A stretch of DNA of 60,195 nucleotides. It comes from an uncultured Clostridia bacterium (GTDB taxonomy: Bacteria; Bacillota; Clostridia; Christensenellales; UBA1242). A model generated the notes under the pieces. The model ran no database searches, had not been told where the DNA came from, and worked only from the letters and a program-made list of their open reading frames with translations. Where the stretch lies: the NCBI GenBank assembly GCA_945928645.1, contig CAMENR010000006.1:1-60195 (forward strand). The letters are read 5' to 3'. This document shows positions 1 to 55,492 of the stretch, piece after piece; within the stretch, counting starts at the first letter, position 1, and each line of letters begins with the position of its first letter. The position numbers were made by a program, and so were the translations under genes.

Positions 1-2100
1 ACGTGTGGTGGCAACAATGGAGAAAGGTATGCTGGTTATGCTGATGTAAGCTATGGTTTTGCTTCTGATCTATGTACTGATATTTATCAAGATGCAACTT
101 TGTATGCTAGTTGGACAGCTAATTCTTATACACTGACTATCAAATACACAGTTCCACGTTGCGGAACATGCAATGCTTCAGGTACAGTTTCTGATTGGGT
201 AGATTGTGGCACTTGTGGTGGCGATGGTAAGGTTGCTGGACAGGTTAACTGCTCCAGTTGTGGTGGTAGTGGTGGATACTATGATGATTGTTCTAGGTGC
301 GGTGGATCAGGAACTACCTCTTCTAGTTGTTCGACATGTAGTGGCTCAGGATCTGTAAGTTGTAGGACATCGTGTAGAGCTTGTAATGGACTTGGAATTT
401 CAGGAGCTTCAGATTGCTCTGCCTGTGGAGGCACTGGAATTTGTCCAATTTGTGATGGGTCAGGCTCACAATCATGTAGTAGTTGTGGTGGCTCTGGATC
501 TAAATCAACAACTTGTTCTAGATGTAGTGGGAATGGACATACATCTTCAGACTGGAATGACTGTTCTACTTGTGGTGGCGATGGTAAGGTTTCTGGTCAG
601 GTTACCTGTTCCAGTTGTGGTGGTTCAGGCGGAAGCAATGTAAGTGGAACATGTCCAACTTGCAGTGGAAGTAAGACAAACTTTAGCCATACGCAATCTC
701 TTACGGCAACGTATAATAGCAATTACCCGTCATTTACACCTAGGTCGTATACTGGTTATACAGTGAGCATACCTAATTATTCTATTAGTGGTAGCACTGC
801 TTCCAGCTCTACAAAATATACCACAGCAGGCAATTCAACAATAAATGCATCACTTTCGGCAGTTAAATATACAATGACTTTGGGTGGCTCTAACGGAAGT
901 TGGAGTGGAACGGCGACAGGAACGACTACTATTGCTTTCGGGGCAAGCGTCAGCTTGACTTGGAGCAACTCTTATTCTGGTTATGACAACTATAGTTGCA
1001 GTATTTCTGGTTATGCGTCAGCGTCTGGTTCTAGAAGTTGCAGTGTTTCATTTGTAATGCCACCATATAATATTAGCCTTACAGGCAAGTCTAGTGCTTC
1101 AAATAATGCTTGTCTAGCCTATGACACACCAATACTCACTTCAAATGGCTGGAAGATGATACAAGACATAACATATAGTGATAGGTTGATTGTTATGAAT
1201 CACGACACTGGCAAAATAGACTCCTCTTATGCCACATGGATAAGCAAGAGTAGACTATCATCAAATGTTATGGAAGTAACATTCTCCGATGGAGAAAAGA
1301 TAAGATTTGTGGGCGACCATGCGGTGTTTAGTTTGGATTATAACAAGTATGTCGCAGTAACAGACCCAGCGAAGTTTGGCATCGGGTCTAGAGTCTTGAA
1401 ACTTGTTTCAGACGACTGCACAGGTGGTGAATGTTCATGTTGCACCACTTGCATCAATCCTCAACATTGTTCGTGGGGCGAGGCAACAGTAACCAACATA
1501 AGATATGTAGATGAAGAAGTTTTGGCGTATTCAGTCATTAGTTCTGGTATGTGGAACTGCTTTGCAGGGAATATCCTGACCACCGTTCCAAATACATTAA
1601 CCTTCCAAAATATGTATGGCTTTAGGAAAAACTTGACCTATGCATCTTCCGTAAGGAAAATGGTGCTGAATGGACAATATGAAGACCACCTCTACACCGA
1701 ACAGCAACTGCGAGATATGGGCTTTGAAGATAGAGATATTGCAGGATTTAGGGGCAGAGAATGGAAGATACTTGTTGACAATGGAATGATAACAGAAGAC
1801 ATTTTGATAAATGACATCTTGTTAGGAGTAGTCAACAACCCAGACGAAAGAGTTCTGCCACCAACAGATGAAAATGGAAATTTTGTATTTGTGGTAACCA
1901 CATCACAAGATGTCCTATCTCCAACATTTGACATACAAGACAACTATTATGAAGAATATTCACAATACATTTTGCCAAACTTGGAGCAAGAGGGTTTTGT
2001 AGGTTGGAGATGTTCTGTGGACGGAAAGATTTACTCTGCAGGCGACATATACATAGTCCGCACAGGCACACATTTTGAGGAGGTATTTGCTGACGGATAG
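1..2100 (+). CDS. Surface protein, 5'-truncated by window edge: InlB/Flg_new-like repeat, ~13 CxxCxGxG-type Cys-rich motifs, Hint (hedgehog/intein-type) domain, C-terminal InlB-like half repeat
   Basis: Frame is open to base 1 (TCGGNNGERYAGYADVSYGFASDLCTDIYQDATLYASWT...), so the listed start at 100 (a TTG) is not the real start. Motifs CGTCGGDG, CSSCGGSG, CSRCGGSG etc.; Hint N-block CLAYDTPILTSNGWKMIQDI, His block FVGDHAVFS, C-block MWNCFAGNILTT; C-term GWRCSVDGKIYSAGDIYIVRTGTHFEEVFA. Confidence 0.8.
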   Translation, partial: TCGGNNGERYAGYADVSYGFASDLCTDIYQDATLYASWTANSYTLTIKYTVPRCGTCNASGTVSDWVDCGTCGGDGKVAGQVNCSSCGGSGGYYDDCSRCGGSGTTSSSCSTCSGSGSVSCRTSCRACNGLGISGASDCSACGGTGICPICDGSGSQSCSSCGGSGSKSTTCSRCSGNGHTSSDWNDCSTCGGDGKVSGQVTCSSCGGSGGSNVSGTCPTCSGSKTNFSHTQSLTATYNSNYPSFTPRSYTGYTVSIPNYSISGSTASSSTKYTTAGNSTINASLSAVKYTMTLGGSNGSWSGTATGTTTIAFGASVSLTWSNSYSGYDNYSCSISGYASASGSRSCSVSFVMPPYNISLTGKSSASNNACLAYDTPILTSNGWKMIQDITYSDRLIVMNHDTGKIDSSYATWISKSRLSSNVMEVTFSDGEKIRFVGDHAVFSLDYNKYVAVTDPAKFGIGSRVLKLVSDDCTGGECSCCTTCINPQHCSWGEATVTNIRYVDEEVLAYSVISSGMWNCFAGNILTTVPNTLTFQNMYGFRKNLTYASSVRKMVLNGQYEDHLYTEQQLRDMGFEDRDIAGFRGREWKILVDNGMITEDILINDILLGVVNNPDERVLPPTDENGNFVFVVTTSQDVLSPTFDIQDNYYEEYSQYILPNLEQEGFVGWRCSVDGKIYSAGDIYIVRTGTHFEEVFADG

Positions 2101-2129
2101 TTGCAAAATATTTTTAGTTAAATGTTTTT

Positions 2130-2192
2130 GTAACATAATAACTATGTTACAATGGACAATAGTGGGGGATATACCCCCACGAAAGCCATTGT
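2130..2192 (+). promoter_or_regulatory. Structured intergenic element (nested hairpins) between the two Hint genes
   Basis: GTAACATA-ataac-TATGTTAC (2130-2150), then ACAATGG(2149-2155)-n-GTGGGGG(2162-2168)-atata-CCCCCAC(2174-2180)-gaaag-CCATTGT(2186-2192). Confidence 0.55.
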
Positions 2193-2237
2193 GATAACCT
2201 TTTGAAAATAAATTTTTATAGGTTTAAGGAGAAAATT

Positions 2238-4295
2238 ATGAAGAAATTTGCTAAATTATTAGCCATATTATGTTGTTTTTTATCTAGTTGTGGACTAATA
2301 TTGGTTGGTTGTGACAAACAGTCAGACAAAGATTACAAACAGCCAGAGGAAGGAACAACTTTCACCCTTACTCTTGATTACACGCAAGGGCTTTTTGCAG
2401 ACATGGAGAGGTGGCAATGTGGGCCAAAATCTGATGCTACTCCGGTTACAATGACTTTTGACGAGCAAAGCAAATCCACAACATTTAGTTTTGGGCAAGA
2501 TGCTACTTATGTAGAGCAAATTTATCTGTCATTGCCAATGGAGAGTGGCTGGAAATATACATGGGAATTTTCTTATCAAAGTTCTATTGACATTGTAGGT
2601 GAAAATAAAATTTGTGCTCAAATCTTTGACCAACCATTAGTTAGTGAAGATACGCTGTTGCCAGTTGCAGAGAAAAATATTCTGCCAACTACATCAAAGC
2701 AATCAAATAAATTGGAGTATCAATGCACCCAAAGCAAAGATTATTATATGGTTGTTCACATTGGCATAGCAGAGCAGGCATCAGACTTTACCCTAAATGT
2801 AAGTGGACTAAAACTTTCTGCTCAAAAATCTTTTGATAAAAATGTAAATAACTACGCTGGGCTTCCAACTCCACAGGTTATATACCTAAGAGAAACAGAT
2901 GCTGAATATAACGAATATTTTGCAGGTTCAGGATATGACAATATGGAGTTTGCTGGCTGGATGTTAGCCCTTTCAGATAGTGAATATTTCCAAAATGGAG
3001 ATATCATCCCTCAAAAAGAAGACCATACTTTACTTGCTATGTGGAATCCAACTATAAAAAAACAAGAAGTAGAGTCTGATAACAAAGGCGGTTGTATTGT
3101 ATTTGGCACACCTGTTATGTTGGCAGATGGAAGTTATAAAAACATTGAAGACATCTCTTTCTTCGATAGAATTTTCCGTTATAACCACGACCTTGGGACT
3201 ATAGACACCGGCTATTGCCATTGGATAAACAAACACAGCCAAACAGACGGAAGTCAAGAGGTTATAAAGGTGTCATTTAGCGATGGTGGAGAACTTACCT
3301 TTGTGCCACCACATGCGATGTTTGCAAGGAATAAAAATGCAGATGATGAGTATGTTTATGAGTATATTTCTGTAACCGACAGCGAAAACTTTCATGCAGG
3401 CACTGAGGTTGTAAAAATGTCTTATAACAATGGCTCACCAACTTGGGCTTGGGTAACTGTTGAAAGTGTTTCCGTGTCGCACGATATTGTGCAATATTGC
3501 CAACCTATTATGGGACAAATGTGGAACTTTTTTGCAAACGATTATCTAACCAACGAGGCTGATGCATTGGGCTTTCACAATATGTATGGATTTGACGAAA
3601 ATTTGGTTTATGCTCATCCTCTAAGACAAATGGTGTTGCAAGAAGAATATCTTCGTGATGAAGAAGGGAATTTTGTTTATGGAGCAGGGCTAGACGCAGA
3701 TGGAAATCCTACAGGACTGGACAAAGACGGCAACCCATTGTCAGACGGAGATGTAACATACACACTGCTAGATAGTTTTACCTTTGCTCCTGATGAACTC
3801 ACTGTGCATCTTTACACTCAAGAAACTATGAAAACATACTTTGATATGACCAAAAGAGATATGCTTGGCTATCGTGGTTCGGAGTGGCAAATATTGGTAG
3901 AATGGTGTGATCTCCTTTGCCAGCGTGGCATAACATCAGAGCCAGAATTTACAAAAGAACTGATAAAATATACAATCATTCGTGACACTGTCAACAGTGA
4001 AAATCACAAAATGGACACAATAAAGAACAGCCAAGGGGAAGAAATTTGGATTGTAACCACAGACAATACTCCTTTTGAGAGAATAAACACCCCAAAAACC
4101 CAACAAGAAATTGATGAATTTGCAAAAAGAGAAGATGTGTTTACCACAGGCTCAATTTATACAGTGCCAGAATACACAGGTAAAAATGCCGAAAACTTCT
4201 CTCATTGGTATTGTTCTGCAGATAGCAAAACTTACAAACCAGGGGATAGTATAGAGGTTCTCTATAGCACACATTTCACAGCAATTTTTAAGTAA
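2238..4295 (+). CDS. Predicted lipoprotein with Hint domain; paralog of the upstream gene
   Basis: ATG at 2238 behind AAGGAGAAA; signal MKKFAKLLAILCCFLSSCGLILVGC with lipobox-like LVGC; Hint CIVFGTPVMLADGSYKNIEDI ... VPPHAMFA ... MWNFFANDYLT; shared C-terminal region (MYGF..NL.YA...R.MVL, GxRGxEWxILV) and InlB-like end. Confidence 0.8.
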   Translation: MKKFAKLLAILCCFLSSCGLILVGCDKQSDKDYKQPEEGTTFTLTLDYTQGLFADMERWQCGPKSDATPVTMTFDEQSKSTTFSFGQDATYVEQIYLSLPMESGWKYTWEFSYQSSIDIVGENKICAQIFDQPLVSEDTLLPVAEKNILPTTSKQSNKLEYQCTQSKDYYMVVHIGIAEQASDFTLNVSGLKLSAQKSFDKNVNNYAGLPTPQVIYLRETDAEYNEYFAGSGYDNMEFAGWMLALSDSEYFQNGDIIPQKEDHTLLAMWNPTIKKQEVESDNKGGCIVFGTPVMLADGSYKNIEDISFFDRIFRYNHDLGTIDTGYCHWINKHSQTDGSQEVIKVSFSDGGELTFVPPHAMFARNKNADDEYVYEYISVTDSENFHAGTEVVKMSYNNGSPTWAWVTVESVSVSHDIVQYCQPIMGQMWNFFANDYLTNEADALGFHNMYGFDENLVYAHPLRQMVLQEEYLRDEEGNFVYGAGLDADGNPTGLDKDGNPLSDGDVTYTLLDSFTFAPDELTVHLYTQETMKTYFDMTKRDMLGYRGSEWQILVEWCDLLCQRGITSEPEFTKELIKYTIIRDTVNSENHKMDTIKNSQGEEIWIVTTDNTPFERINTPKTQQEIDEFAKREDVFTTGSIYTVPEYTGKNAENFSHWYCSADSKTYKPGDSIEVLYSTHFTAIFK

Positions 4296-4378
4296 ATTTA
4301 ACATATTAAAATGTTTTATTATAAATAAAATCTGAAATTTGAATATAGGCAATAAAAATTCAAATAAACATTTAGAAG

Positions 4379-4410
4379 ATGAGTTCAGTTTTACTGGGCT
4401 CATTTTTTTA
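4379..4410 (+). terminator. Rho-independent terminator after the second Hint gene
   Basis: ATGAG-tt-CAGT-ttt-ACTG-gg-CTCAT followed by T7. Confidence 0.75.
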
Positions 4411-8203: not shown

Positions 8204-9511
8204 ATGACCAAAAACGAAAGGTTTGTCCTATGGCTCAACAAGTTGGGCAGAGGGTGCAACCGTATAACAATATGTGTGTTATACATAACCATTATGGTAA
8301 TTCTTGCCACCATTATCTATGGTGCCAACCAACAGAAAGCCACCTCCAACGTTACTGTAACCTATTCTAGACCCTCTTACACCGTTACTTTTGACCCAGC
8401 AGGGGGAGGGGCTTCCAGCTCAAAGATCGTCAAATTAGGCGATAATTACGGTGATTTGCCCACTCCTACAAAGACTGGTTATACCTTTAATGGTTGGCAA
8501 ACATCAGACGGAACAACAGTAACTTCCACCACCCAAAACACCACCATAGGCGACCATACTCTTACTGCAAGTTGGACCGCCAAGACCTATTCAGTAACCA
8601 GTGGTGCAAACCTCACAGGAGTGAGTGTGTCGGTAGGTTCCACAGGGACATTTGATGCTTCACTTTCCATTTCTACCAGTGGCAGTGCTACTGGATACAA
8701 TTATACATTTGGCAACATAAAGGTGTATTCTGGCACTAGCACCAGTGGAACATTGCTTGCCACAATCAATGCAACCAGTGGCACTTTTACTATGACAGGA
8801 ACCTATTATGACAATATTTATGTATATGCAACTTGGTCAAGGTCAGGTAAGAGTTATTCAGTAACCAGTGGTTCAAACCTCACAGGCACAAGTGTATCTG
8901 TAAGTTCCACAGGGACATTTGGCAGTGGCTTGTCCATATCTTCCAGTGGTAGTGCAGCAGGATATTCCTATTCTATTAGCAACATAAAGGTGTATTCAGG
9001 TAGTAATGCCAGTGGCACACTACTTGCCACAATCAATGCAACCAGTGGCACCTTCACTATGTCAGGCACTTACTATAGCAGTGTGTATGTATATGCCACA
9101 TGGAGCCGCTCTGCCATAGCAACAACTATTTCAGCAAATAAAACTTCGGTTAGTTATAGTTCGAGTTCTGGTGGTAGTATTACTATTACTGCAGGAGGAG
9201 GTGGTGGAAAATGGAAATATAGTGTGATCAGCGCTACTTGCAATTATAATGGAGCATGTGCATATGCAGACTATCATCATAATAGAAGTGCATATGAATT
9301 TTATACACTTTCCACTACTTCAGAAACTACGGGCTCTGTTACCCTAAAATGCACAGGTATTTGTTGCCAGATAGTTCATATCTTCGGCAATAACGTAAGT
9401 AGGAATAATGTTACCGTTACATATACATATGTGGTTCAAGCAGAAAGCGTGTATAATGGGACAAAAGCGACCATAACAGTTAAGTTTAGTTCGAAATATA
9501 CCAACATGTAA
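8204..9511 (+). CDS. Surface protein: N-terminal TM/signal anchor, InlB_B repeat, two ~89-aa tandem repeats
   Basis: ITICVLYITIMVILATIIYGA hydrophobic segment; YTVTFDPAGGGASSSKIVKLGDNYGDLPTPTKTGYTFNGW...LTASWTAK; repeats beginning YSVTSGANLTG / YSVTSGSNLTG. Confidence 0.75.
   Translation: MTKNERFVLWLNKLGRGCNRITICVLYITIMVILATIIYGANQQKATSNVTVTYSRPSYTVTFDPAGGGASSSKIVKLGDNYGDLPTPTKTGYTFNGWQTSDGTTVTSTTQNTTIGDHTLTASWTAKTYSVTSGANLTGVSVSVGSTGTFDASLSISTSGSATGYNYTFGNIKVYSGTSTSGTLLATINATSGTFTMTGTYYDNIYVYATWSRSGKSYSVTSGSNLTGTSVSVSSTGTFGSGLSISSSGSAAGYSYSISNIKVYSGSNASGTLLATINATSGTFTMSGTYYSSVYVYATWSRSAIATTISANKTSVSYSSSSGGSITITAGGGGGKWKYSVISATCNYNGACAYADYHHNRSAYEFYTLSTTSETTGSVTLKCTGICCQIVHIFGNNVSRNNVTVTYTYVVQAESVYNGTKATITVKFSSKYTNM
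8588..9118 (+). repeat. Two in-frame ~267-bp direct repeats within the surface protein gene
   Basis: tattcagtaaccagtggtgcaaacctcacagg at 8588 and tattcagtaaccagtggttcaaacctcacagg at 8855 (267-nt offset). Confidence 0.8.
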
Positions 9512-50548: not shown

Positions 50549-53500
50549 ATGCATAAGAACAAATTTAAGTTGTCATACATATTTTTGGGCGTAGTGATGT
50601 CGCTTGCCTTTTTGCTGTGTGGGGTGTCTATTGGCAAAACGATCACAGTTGAAGCGCAGGGGGTATCTTATCCTTTGGCTCAGGCTACAACATTGCCAGA
50701 GTCTTACTCTCTGTATAACATTTCTGGCATAACTGTTGAGCAAAATGAGGGCTTGTCATATAGAGTGGGTAACCAGAAAGGGAGTAATATATGTTGGACT
50801 TTTGCCAGCCTAACAGCATTTGAAACTACACTAAAAATGACCAATGTAATTGATAAAAATATGGACATAAATTTTTCTGAAGCAGATATGGCTTATTATG
50901 TTCACAAGGAGGCTCGTGATAGGTCAAGTGTGGGTGGCGGTGCAACGGAATTTGCATATGAATATCTCTCTCGTGGTGTAGGTGTAGTGCAGGAGCAATC
51001 TTGGGAAACATATAATCAAGAGAAAAATTGGGCAAACGATGCCACATTAACTACATATTATGAAAATAAAATTGCATTGTATGGTAGGAATTATCTTCCA
51101 TATGAAGCAAAGGAATACAAATTATTTCCATCTAGAAGTGTTATAAAATTTAATGATAGTGTTGATGGAGTGGATAGTGAAACAACTGAGCAAAAGATTT
51201 TGGAGTTGAGAAACTCTATCAAACAACACATAACAACTTATGGGGCTGTTATGGCATCAATATATATGAACAACTCCTATTATAACAATAGTCTTTATAC
51301 TTATTGCAACAATGACTACTCTACCACAAATCATATGATTGCCATAGTGGGTTGGGATGACAACAAAGAAGACAATCTTGGCAACAAGGGGGCATATATT
51401 TGTCAAAATTCTTATGGCTCAACTTATGGCAATGAGGGGTTCTTTTATGTTATGTATGCAGACAACACCATAGAAGACGATGTTGGGGGATTTATCCGTG
51501 TGGGAGAAATAGATGATTCCGAAGATATTTTGCTATATGACAAAATGGATGTTGAGGGCTCTGTGAACAAAAATCAATTTGTAGTGCTGAACGGGACATC
51601 TTATTCAACAGAATTTTATAACACTCCAAATACATATGTATTTGCAAACGTTTTTGAAAGACAAAACTACTCTGACCAATATATATCCAAAATAAAATTG
51701 CCAACTATCAGTGTGCTTGCTGGCACAGTGTCAAATAATGCGATAACTTATTATACCTCTAACAATAGCCCAACCAATTTCAAGGTCTTTGTTGCTGATG
51801 GGATATCAAAGAGTGAATTAACTTCACTTTCTACTGTGTTCAAGAATAAATTTCCAACAAGCACTGCGATAAAAAACCCATACACTACCGGTGGAGATGA
51901 ATATTTATTTACATCGCAACAAACAGGGTTTTATTGTGTAGATTTGCAAGAGGAAATAGCCCTTAGTGGAGATTATTTTGTTGTGTTTATGCAGGTGCAG
52001 GCAGGGGGATATGTATTTGCAGGGAATAATGCTAGCAATATATCTTATCCAACATATATAACCAGCAATTCTTATGGCACATCAGGATGGGGAGAATATA
52101 AAGTAGGTAGTGGCTCTAGTGCCTATAATTGTGTTTTCCCTATGATTGTAGAAAGCAAGGTTAAGGGCGAAATTCAGGCCTCTGTGCAGGAGGGTAGTGT
52201 CATTGCAGAATATGATGGCAAATCTCACAATCCAAGGGTAACTGTTTCATCTCCACAAAACACAGAGATAGCTTATAGCATTGACGGAGGGGATTATACC
52301 TCTAGCATAAACTTAATTGATGTAAAATGGGGAGAAGATACAAATGGCAACAAAGTTGCAATGCCATATACTATTGCCATAAAGATTTCTGCCAAATTTT
52401 ATCAACCAAAAATTTTGATCTGCCATGTGCAGATAAATCCAAGGACATTAAATGTAATACCAGTTGAGCAAACAATAACTTATGGGGATTTGGATAATCA
52501 AACATTGGCATTTTTGGTAGATGGGCTGGTTGAAGGGGAGGAGGAATACCACACTGGCAGGCTTCAGCGACAGTCTGGGAGCAATGCTGGAGAATATCCG
52601 ATAAATATTGGCGATTTGAAGTTTGTAGAAAGAGGGAATTTTAATCCATCAAATTATTCAATTAACTTTGATGAAACAAAGATTTTTACAATCTTGCCAA
52701 AGGTGTTGACTGTGTTACCAAATGATGTTAGCAAAAAATATGGCGATGATGACCCTGTGTTTGATTATACATTTGAAGGTGCTGTGGGTGATGAAATCCC
52801 TGTTGGAAATATTAGTTTGGAGAGAGAAAGTGGGGAAAATGCTGGAAATTATGCTCTAAACCTTTCTTCAACCTCTAGTCTTTCCAACCATACACAAAGT
52901 GGTTTTTATGCAAGAAATTACACTTTGCAAATAGCACAAGATAGTTTTTTTGAAATTGAGAAAAGAGAACTTGTATTGACTTTTACAAAACAACTTTCCA
53001 AAAAAGTGGGCGAAAGTGACCCTGTATTAGAGTTTGAATTTGACAATAAAGTGGCTGGGGAAGAGCCAAATTATTCTGGAAGTTTGGCTAGAGAAAGTGG
53101 CGAGAGTGTGGGGCATTATCTAATTACTGCAGGAAATTTTTGCTTGATAGATAATTTAAGTGGCAACTTCTTGGCAAGCAATTATTGTTTTAGGTTGGAG
53201 GAGGGATATTTGTATATAACAAACGGGACTCTTGATGCTTCATCATTTGTTTCCAGCAAATCTTCCACCTACAACGGACAAATGCAATATATTGATGTGT
53301 TTGCTGGCGATAGTATGACTGTTTTGTATTGCGAAGGGGAAACTTTTGTGGAAGAAAATAGTCAAACTGAACCAATCGGTAGACTTCATGTTGGCAAGAA
53401 TATGATAACAATCAAATTTTCTATGAAAGATTATGATGACTCTTATGCAACAGTTTTTATAGAAATTTTGCCTGCAACCATTATTGTTACTCCAAAGAGT

Positions 53501-55492
53501 GGTCAATGTGCTATTTATGGGGATACAAACTATACTATACAATACACATATTCTGGTAATATTGCTGGAGAAATGCCAAATTTTAGTGGCTCTTTAACAA
53601 GGGAATCTGGTAGCGATGTAGGGTTGTATAATATTACACAGGGGACTTTGAAGTTGGTCGATTCTGAAACCTTTTGCAAAGAGGATTATGAATTGGAGAT
53701 AGCAAGTGATGTAAAATTTGAAATAGTAAAAAAACAACTAATAGTTGTCCCAACGGGCTCCTTGCAAAAAATGTATGGCAAAACTGACCCAGAGTTGACA
53801 TTTACATTAACAGGTGCTGTTGGAAGAGATGTTGTAACATTCAATGGACAAATTATTCGTAAGACAGGCGAAAGTGTAGGAAGTTATGGTTATGAAATAG
53901 GGTCTGTAACATTGGATAGCGAATGGTCAACAAATTACACTGTTTGCTCAACAATTGAAGGGAGTTTTGAAATTGTTTGCGCAGTTATTAAGATAAAAAT
54001 TAAAGATCAAACAAGCCCTTATGGCAATATCAAAACCAATTATCAATATGAATTTTTGGACGGAACGGAGGGAAATATTTCTTCTAGCGATAGCGCTCAA
54101 GGCATAATAGAATTTGTGTGTAAAGATGATACGGGTTTGCCAATTTCTAATACAACAAGAAGAAATGATGCTGGTTATGATATAACTGCAAAATCAAAAA
54201 ATAGCAATTATGAAGTGCAAGCAACCTCGGCAAAACACTACATTCAATATAAGATGTGTGTTGTAACATTTGAATACATTGATCAAACGGCAACTATTGA
54301 GGTGGAACAATTCTCCAAACTTACATCTGCGCCTAGCGAAATAAACATCTCTGTGCCTGGATATAGGTTTGGGGATTGGCAAATTGGTAGTGTGGTATAT
54401 GATATAGCAAACTATGAAGTTGAAGATGATGTAACATTTGTAGGTAGTTATACTTTGATAACTTATACAATAATATACAACTTAAATGGTGGGGAATTTG
54501 CTGGCGATTATGTCAAAAATTATACAGTTGTTACAGAAACTTTTTATCTTCCAAATCCCACAAGGGAAAGATATATATTTGAGGGGTGGTTTGACAATGC
54601 AAATTTTAGTGGTCAACGCATAGAAAAGGTGGAACAAGGCTCGACTAAAAATCTAGTTTTTATTGCCAAATGGAAAGGGGAAGATTGCTCTATTACAACA
54701 CCAGAAGGGAATGAAAAATTTGCAGTTAGCAGTAGCAAATCTGTTGTGGAGTATGGCTCTATGTATTCATTCTCTGTGGAATTGCAAAGTGGTTATAGCA
54801 AATCGCAAAAGACTATAAAAACATATATAAAATGGTTAGGTAGTGGCGAAAGGGTATTGATTGAAAATGCTGATATTCAACAAGAAGATGTAGGTGATAT
54901 GCCTCTAGACCCAAAACTAACAATCGAATATGAAATACGAGTTAAGGGGAGTTTTGAGATAGAGGTTGAAGGGGTGTCCATAAATGAGTATCAAGTTGCA
55001 TTTGTAGTTGACGGAGAAGTATATAGACAAGAAAAATTAACACACGGAGACAGTTTGCCAGATGACCGTATCCCAACCATTCCGGAAAAACTTCATTACA
55101 CCCAAGTAGAGCCAGTTTGGAGTCAAACAGAGGTAAACAATGTATATTGCGACTTAATCATCAATGCGATATATACCCCAGATGTTTATAAGGTTACATT
55201 TGTATTTGAAGACGGACAAACAGTGGAACAAGATGTTACTTATGGCACAATATGTTCTACTGAAAAATTAAGCGAAGTATATGAGTTAAAATTCTTGGAA
55301 TACTATGAATTTGATGGTCAACTTGATAATATACAAGATGATACAACTATCAATGTTAAGGTTGTTAGCAATAGGCATTTGTTGTATATTGCTCTAGGAA
55401 TAATAGGAGGGATTGCAATAGTTGGAACTATAGTGGGAGTAATAGTTAGAAAGAGAAGACATAAGTTTAATTGGTGGAGTTATAACAAATAG
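50549..55492 (+). CDS. Large surface protein: signal peptide, papain-like cysteine protease, multiple MBG-type repeats, InlB_B repeats, C-terminal TM anchor
   Basis: NQKGSNICWTFAS (Gln/Cys), NHMIAIVGWDD (His), CQNSYGSTYGNEGFFYVMY (Asn); repeats ...YGD.(D)P.F.F...G..GE...(G)L.RESG..(A/V)G.Y; YTIIYNLNGGEFAGDYVKNYTV...FEGWFDNANFSGQRIE; C-term LLYIALGIIGGIAIVGTIVGVIVRKRRHK. Confidence 0.85.
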   Translation: MHKNKFKLSYIFLGVVMSLAFLLCGVSIGKTITVEAQGVSYPLAQATTLPESYSLYNISGITVEQNEGLSYRVGNQKGSNICWTFASLTAFETTLKMTNVIDKNMDINFSEADMAYYVHKEARDRSSVGGGATEFAYEYLSRGVGVVQEQSWETYNQEKNWANDATLTTYYENKIALYGRNYLPYEAKEYKLFPSRSVIKFNDSVDGVDSETTEQKILELRNSIKQHITTYGAVMASIYMNNSYYNNSLYTYCNNDYSTTNHMIAIVGWDDNKEDNLGNKGAYICQNSYGSTYGNEGFFYVMYADNTIEDDVGGFIRVGEIDDSEDILLYDKMDVEGSVNKNQFVVLNGTSYSTEFYNTPNTYVFANVFERQNYSDQYISKIKLPTISVLAGTVSNNAITYYTSNNSPTNFKVFVADGISKSELTSLSTVFKNKFPTSTAIKNPYTTGGDEYLFTSQQTGFYCVDLQEEIALSGDYFVVFMQVQAGGYVFAGNNASNISYPTYITSNSYGTSGWGEYKVGSGSSAYNCVFPMIVESKVKGEIQASVQEGSVIAEYDGKSHNPRVTVSSPQNTEIAYSIDGGDYTSSINLIDVKWGEDTNGNKVAMPYTIAIKISAKFYQPKILICHVQINPRTLNVIPVEQTITYGDLDNQTLAFLVDGLVEGEEEYHTGRLQRQSGSNAGEYPINIGDLKFVERGNFNPSNYSINFDETKIFTILPKVLTVLPNDVSKKYGDDDPVFDYTFEGAVGDEIPVGNISLERESGENAGNYALNLSSTSSLSNHTQSGFYARNYTLQIAQDSFFEIEKRELVLTFTKQLSKKVGESDPVLEFEFDNKVAGEEPNYSGSLARESGESVGHYLITAGNFCLIDNLSGNFLASNYCFRLEEGYLYITNGTLDASSFVSSKSSTYNGQMQYIDVFAGDSMTVLYCEGETFVEENSQTEPIGRLHVGKNMITIKFSMKDYDDSYATVFIEILPATIIVTPKSGQCAIYGDTNYTIQYTYSGNIAGEMPNFSGSLTRESGSDVGLYNITQGTLKLVDSETFCKEDYELEIASDVKFEIVKKQLIVVPTGSLQKMYGKTDPELTFTLTGAVGRDVVTFNGQIIRKTGESVGSYGYEIGSVTLDSEWSTNYTVCSTIEGSFEIVCAVIKIKIKDQTSPYGNIKTNYQYEFLDGTEGNISSSDSAQGIIEFVCKDDTGLPISNTTRRNDAGYDITAKSKNSNYEVQATSAKHYIQYKMCVVTFEYIDQTATIEVEQFSKLTSAPSEINISVPGYRFGDWQIGSVVYDIANYEVEDDVTFVGSYTLITYTIIYNLNGGEFAGDYVKNYTVVTETFYLPNPTRERYIFEGWFDNANFSGQRIEKVEQGSTKNLVFIAKWKGEDCSITTPEGNEKFAVSSSKSVVEYGSMYSFSVELQSGYSKSQKTIKTYIKWLGSGERVLIENADIQQEDVGDMPLDPKLTIEYEIRVKGSFEIEVEGVSINEYQVAFVVDGEVYRQEKLTHGDSLPDDRIPTIPEKLHYTQVEPVWSQTEVNNVYCDLIINAIYTPDVYKVTFVFEDGQTVEQDVTYGTICSTEKLSEVYELKFLEYYEFDGQLDNIQDDTTINVKVVSNRHLLYIALGIIGGIAIVGTIVGVIVRKRRHKFNWWSYNK

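Follow-up and report, generated by a model that had tools for sequence, protein, structure and literature searches.

A family of Hint-domain tails on exported proteins of uncultured Clostridia, predicted to cleave without splicing

Known Hint systems and the p1–p2 pair

Hint domains that keep Cys1 and the block-B His but have lost the splicing end undergo an N–S acyl shift, and cleave without splicing. To our knowledge, Hint domains are known to modify proteins covalently at the C-terminus only in eukaryotes. The literature cited here describes such modification for Hedgehog proteins only (PMC13060885; PMC9163320). In Hedgehog, Asp46 acts as general base and so enables cholesterol to attack the thioester (PMC13060885; PMC9163320); in a D46A mutant the thioester still forms and thiolysis is faster (PMC13060885). 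We analysed a 60,195-nucleotide stretch of DNA (the window) from an uncultured Clostridia bacterium, contig CAMENR010000006.1, which opens with two neighbouring forward-strand genes, p1 and p2. Their products are divergent members of an unannotated, unnamed, order-wide bacterial family of Hint tails.

Both open reading frames (ORFs), p1 (1–2100) and p2 (2238–4295), are open, and their ends were confirmed. A sequence-only reading of the window had proposed a Hint domain in each of the two neighbours, and structure prediction and profiles bear this out. The Hint domain of p1 lies at 1111–1593 (Cys1 codon 1111–1113, block-B His codon 1318–1320) and that of p2 at 3093–3563 (Cys1 codon 3093–3095, His codon 3312–3314). 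The motifs are as that reading gave them: CLAYDTPIL at 1111, CIVFGTPVML at 3093, GDHAVF, PPHAMF, and the block G strings, at 1555–1593 in p1 (NCFAGNILTTVPN, without His-Asn) and at 3525–3563 in p2 (NFFANDYLTNEAD). Singly, the profile matches are weak, at 4e-4 for p1 (Pfam Intein_splicing) and 5e-3 for p2 (Hint), and both proteins score below the cut-offs of the curated Hint and intein profiles of Pfam and NCBIfam. A PDB search with p2 alone gave no match, and a family profile gave only marginal matches to PDB sequences. With single-protein profiles below cut-off, it is the structure model that settles the fold of the p2 Hint domain: the AlphaFold2 (AF2) model has pLDDT mostly >90 over the Hint part, and the closest match in the PDB is the Hedgehog Hint domain 1AT0 (Foldseek, E 9e-8, TM 0.81 by target). 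The post-Hint part was modelled poorly.

From the Cys onward, p1 and p2 are 36% identical. The post-Hint region that they were said to have in common (1594–2100 in p1; 3564–4295, including the stop, in p2, where the model has low confidence) is seen in the alignment, with NMYGF, GFRGREWKILV and, in p1, a repeat-like C-terminal end. The "InlB-like half repeat" proposed for this end is visible in the alignment, but neither protein has a Pfam List_Bact match at E≤1, so the InlB likeness is a resemblance only. The two paralogs pair as nearest kin in the family tree, and a search of the genome found only these two copies.

An order-wide family of Hint tails

What we observed of the family concerns its fold, residue conservation, architecture and distribution. 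About 110 relatives were gathered, all from one bacterial order, and Pfam and NCBIfam score the family only below cut-off. A Hint tail is found in 82 of 396 genomes of the order and in 38 of 310 genomes of the same taxonomic family; among 149 near genomes, 12 have divergent Hint tails, the window's own genome being one of them. In a phylum sample of 399 genomes, only the window's own genome has one. Scanning named genomes confirmed 196 relatives, of which 80 were retained. Their titles are mostly uncultured Clostridia, Clostridiales, Christensenellaceae/Christensenella and Candidatus Gallimonas; a few odd ones (Corallococcus, Ruminococcus, Oscillospiraceae metagenome-assembled genomes) may be mislabelled bins. 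Going by these titles, the order is probably Christensenellales of GTDB. Each genome carries one to four copies. We found no earlier description of the family in the open-access literature. Neither p2 nor the L032-type Hint domain matched any phage record, and the main-clade protein L085 gave only weak Hint matches there; PHROGs gave weak intein-in-helicase matches only, and PADLOC none. In a Foldseek search of BFVD with the L085 Hint model, the best viral match was a Hint protein of the giant virus Gaeavirus (A0A3G5A239; E 5.6e-12 over 225 columns). It outscored every intein, and the match possibly includes the post-Hint domain.

The family has three sub-types, in a tree whose deep joins are weak and whose bootstrap is not settled. 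Members of the main clade mostly have Asp or Glu at position 46 and a conserved helical post-Hint domain of about 75 residues. An AF2 model of a main-clade tail (pLDDT 93.7, pTM 0.88) has a Hint domain and the helical post-Hint domain, and its PDB matches are Hint folds from inteins, BIL domains and Hedgehog. The WI[TNSQ]K branch holds p1 and p2 as sisters (support 97/90); several of its members have a long post-Hint region with a repeat-like end, and one genome (G338) has another Hint-tail pair, about 5 kb apart. In the short sub-type, the protein stops at or soon after the Hint domain, as in L010, which reads TNDHPLF and ends NYFANDVLSSAL. The short types L010, L019, L043 and L046–L048 end at or soon after block G, and one of them has a canonical TxxH.

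Cys1 and His72 (the block-B His) are invariant in 112 of 112 family rows, as in Hedgehog. In a diverse alignment (15 sequences, about 22% identity, and only about 22% identical to p2) just three columns are invariant, and these two residues account for two of them. The absence of the penultimate His and terminal Asn, first pointed out for p1 and p2, extends to the whole family: no row has His-Asn, His-Gln or His-Asp after block G (0/112), and a single row of the 112 fills the position of the canonical Asn. Main-clade members have Asp46 in 78 of 80 cases and Glu71-His72 in all 80. At position 69, where TxxH has its Thr, members carry Ile or Val outside the short sub-type and a few other sequences; Thr itself is found in only three family rows, of the short sub-type. 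At position 46, p1 has Ser and p2 has Asn; among their closest relatives the residue is Thr, Gln, Ala or Lys. An ungapped alignment of the main clade with the checked 1AT0 sequence (E 6e-4) puts Cys1, Asp46 and His72 at identical numbers; in an alignment with the NpuDnaB intein, the column equivalent to Asp46 is not acidic.

The Hint domain sits near the C-terminus, usually followed by the conserved helical domain, behind varied exported parts. Among 55 complete main-clade proteins, these parts include List_Bact repeats (23), BspA LRR_5 repeats (22), subtilase (12), alpha/beta hydrolase (4) and M64 peptidase (1). By simple in-house rules rather than SignalP, 52 of 62 complete proteins have a signal-peptide-like start; of these 52, one has a lipobox, none has LPXTG and one has an internal hydrophobic segment. 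Most main-clade proteins have no other obvious surface anchor. The residue before Cys1 (position −1) is Ser in 46 of about 79 main-clade rows and is the most constrained upstream position (Kullback–Leibler divergence 1.45 bits, where the null reached at most 0.45, with rows treated as unrelated). This bias fits what would be expected of a cleavage site.

A same-strand ORF lies ≤150 nt upstream of the Hint gene at 49 of 57 loci. These ORFs fall into several small families, and in 31 of them a loose pattern picks out a lipobox-like start. In most of the loci L053–L129, small ORFs of a secreted or lipoprotein-like type nearly abut the Hint gene; recurring families include "FYxLxEAYENGWLTxxD" and "YTEEQHLxRIxKRAxxR". 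The product of the small upstream ORF is a possible partner in processing or anchoring. Directly downstream of the Hint gene, the loci examined have no recurring gene and no immunity-like pattern. Sortase (PF04203) is found in two of 79 genomes with a main-clade tail, versus 50 of 121 in the order sample. This inverse relation (Fisher 4e-11 by genome; 0.0013 by family, families not being independent) is a lead and not a test, since the samples overlap and the genomes are related.

How does the family compare with the described systems? On sequence and structure models, the tail is a Hint-superfamily domain that would work in the manner of a type-B BIL or a Hog domain. The Hog domain of Hedgehog (Hint plus SRR/ARR, 1AT0; SRR, sterol-recognition region) also stands at the C-terminus behind an exported cargo and has an extra domain after Hint, with Cys1, Asp46 (main clade) and His72 in the same ungapped numbering and no His-Asn. 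In contrast to Hog, the family is bacterial, has Ile or Val for Thr69, lacks Asp46 in p1 and p2, and has a helical, conserved post-Hint domain whose kinship to the SRR is putative. Hog transfers its cargo to a sterol, whereas a sterol or hopanoid is unlikely for the bacterial family. Hog domains have an Asp (or His) at position 46 that activates the acceptor; the main clade has the Asp, but p1 and p2 do not. We do not file the family as Hedgehog: nearly all members have lost TxxH, the post-Hint domain is at most a candidate SRR, and only 12 of 79 members match PF01079, all weakly (best E 3e-4), with p2 below its cut-off. Type-B BIL domains are likewise bacterial Hint domains with the intein motifs save the C-terminal one, and with N-terminal cleavage expected (PMC7765530). 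The family differs from them in its position near the C-terminus of exported proteins, in the main-clade Asp46 and in its conserved post-Hint domain, a kind not mentioned in the cited BIL literature. PT-HINT domains of polymorphic toxins share the place near the C-terminus of an exported protein, but the family has no variable toxin domain, immunity gene pattern or PF07591 match. Class 1 inteins share the Hint fold, Cys1 and the block-B His, but not the family's lack of a terminal His-Asn. Like the sortase/LPXTG system, the family places a C-terminal module on varied exported proteins, with covalent surface attachment as the proposed outcome; unlike it, the tail is predicted to catalyse its own reaction in cis, there is no LPXTG, and the host genomes are mostly without sortase.

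Cleavage and the step that follows it

From these observations we infer cleavage, transfer and an acceptor. We propose that the C-terminal tail, comprising the Hint domain and the post-Hint region, acts as a self-processing unit on p1 and p2, of which p1 is presumably exported by kinship and p2 by its signal. Assisted by the block-B His, the Hint domain would convert the peptide bond that precedes Cys1 to a thioester by an N–S acyl shift. No splicing would follow, because the Asn end is gone; instead, a nucleophile would resolve the thioester and the N-terminal part would be freed from the tail. We regard cleavage of the tail as highly probable. The sequence-only claim that the proteins should cleave and not splice stands as an expectation from sequence, with the catalytic residues kept and the splicing end lost, and predicted cleavage without splicing is well supported because Cys1 and His72 never vary among the 112 rows and His-Asn never occurs.

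What resolves the thioester? In the main clade, the acidic residue 46 and the helical post-Hint domain would be placed like the Hedgehog general base and sterol-recognition region. Such a placement makes a specific surface acceptor the most likely nucleophile. This acceptor may be a lipid or a cell-wall polymer hydroxyl, and the outcome would be a covalent C-terminal anchor. Transfer is favoured in the main clade because of Asp46, the post-Hint domain and the absence of another anchor. A sterol or hopanoid acceptor was set aside: hardly any genome in the order sample has squalene-hopene cyclase (2 of 121, weak matches), which makes a hopanoid unlikely. In the sub-branch of the window the acid is replaced (Asn, Ser), and water, giving release, or a stronger nucleophile such as an amine or thiol may serve. 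For p1 and p2 themselves, we judge hydrolytic release about as likely as attachment, since Asp46 is missing and p2 has its own lipid signal. Hence, the earlier suggestion of self-attachment is better backed for the wider family than for the pair for which it was made.

Overall, we lean towards a self-processing tail of hedgehog-like type, which would cut ahead of Cys1 and then probably pass the protein on to an acceptor. Several observations weigh against it. The Thr of TxxH is replaced in nearly all members, the probability given by hhalign for a match to Hedgehog is just 28% (first 86 columns), and Asp46 is absent from p1 and p2. With its N-terminal lipid signal, p2 would not need a C-terminal anchor. 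The copy number is low for a general sorting system, and the inverse relation to sortase is confounded by phylogeny. The broader proposal is a bacterial hedgehog-type sorting system, in which a C-terminal Hint domain with an acceptor-recognition domain would cut itself off and leave the exported protein covalently bound to a lipid of the surface or a polymer of the wall, taking the role of sortase in sortase-less clostridial lineages. It is possible but doubtful; the window pair would then be a sub-branch with a changed second step.

The closest competitor to the hedgehog-like tail is plain hydrolytic self-cleavage, as in B-type BILs, in which the tail is cut off after export with no acceptor, the N-terminal protein is released or matured, and the post-Hint domain serves as a folding or export aid. 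B-type BILs, which lack the C-terminal motif, cleave at their N-terminal side (PMC7765530), p1 and p2 lack Asp46, Hedgehog D46A keeps thioester formation with faster thiolysis (PMC13060885), and p2 already has a lipid anchor signal. We nonetheless consider this rather unlikely; the main-clade Asp46 and the strongly conserved post-Hint domain suggest a specific second step.

The invariance of Cys1 and His72, when nearly everything else drifts, and the bias at residue −1 are difficult to reconcile with a catalytically dead Hint domain retained as a structural module; the loss of Thr69 and of the His-Asn end would fit such a module, which we consider improbable. About as improbable is a polymorphic-toxin arrangement, in which the Hint domain would release the post-Hint domain as an effector. 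HINT domains often directly precede C-terminal toxin domains (PMC3482391), and there are weak tblastn matches to HINT proteins of Streptomyces plasmids (E 0.004–0.1). However, the order has a single, conserved post-Hint domain in place of a variable one; the recurring adjacent neighbours lie upstream, with no recurrent immunity-like gene directly downstream; and the PT-HINT profile PF07591 finds no match in the genome. The toxin reading was set aside. Splicing by a true intein through a shifted Asn would find a candidate in p1, which reads TTVPNT, with VPN-T two residues further on. It is very improbable, and was set aside, given the lack of a His-Asn, -Gln or -Asp end and the single filled Asn position among the 112 rows; moreover, the short sub-type stops at the Hint domain and has no C-extein.

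Surroundings of the pair and significance

The 5ʹ end of p1 is cut off by the contig edge, and its true N-terminus lies beyond the contig. The p1 cargo (1–1110) has Cys-rich, DnaJ-type CxxCxGxG-like repeats followed by a repeat-like stretch. The zinc-finger-like run (1–690) matches DnaJ_CXXCXGXG at E 0.11, below cut-off; such repeats are unusual outside the cytoplasm, yet p1 relatives are exported. The p2 start, ATG at 2238, stands behind a good ribosome site (AAGGAG, 2226–2231), and the p2 cargo (2238–3092) begins with a lipoprotein-type signal ending LVGC (Cys codon 2310–2312). The gap between the genes (2101–2237) contains a strong composite hairpin at about 2145–2196 (−38.7 kcal/mol, z −5.2), with a perfect GTGGGGG-ATATA-CCCCCAC core. 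It matched no Rfam family, is single-copy within the genome, and is possibly a cis-regulatory element of p2. An intrinsic-terminator-like site at 4374–4408 on the forward strand, found by a consensus scan only, closes the pair. Elsewhere in the window, 8204–9511 encodes a List_Bact protein with surface-type repeats, and 50549–55492 a papain-family peptidase with surface-type MBG and List_Bact repeats.

The pair is of more interest than first described because it is the edge of an unannotated family that spans an order. If transfer occurs, Hint-made covalent C-terminal modification would also exist in bacteria, as a protein-sorting mechanism, and the tail would offer a small tag that modifies itself, for conjugating proteins to lipids or polymers. 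The family also supplies a bacterial counterpart for work on the origin of the Hog domain. Even if there is cleavage only, a sizeable unannotated family would set the mature form of many exported proteins in uncultured Clostridia.

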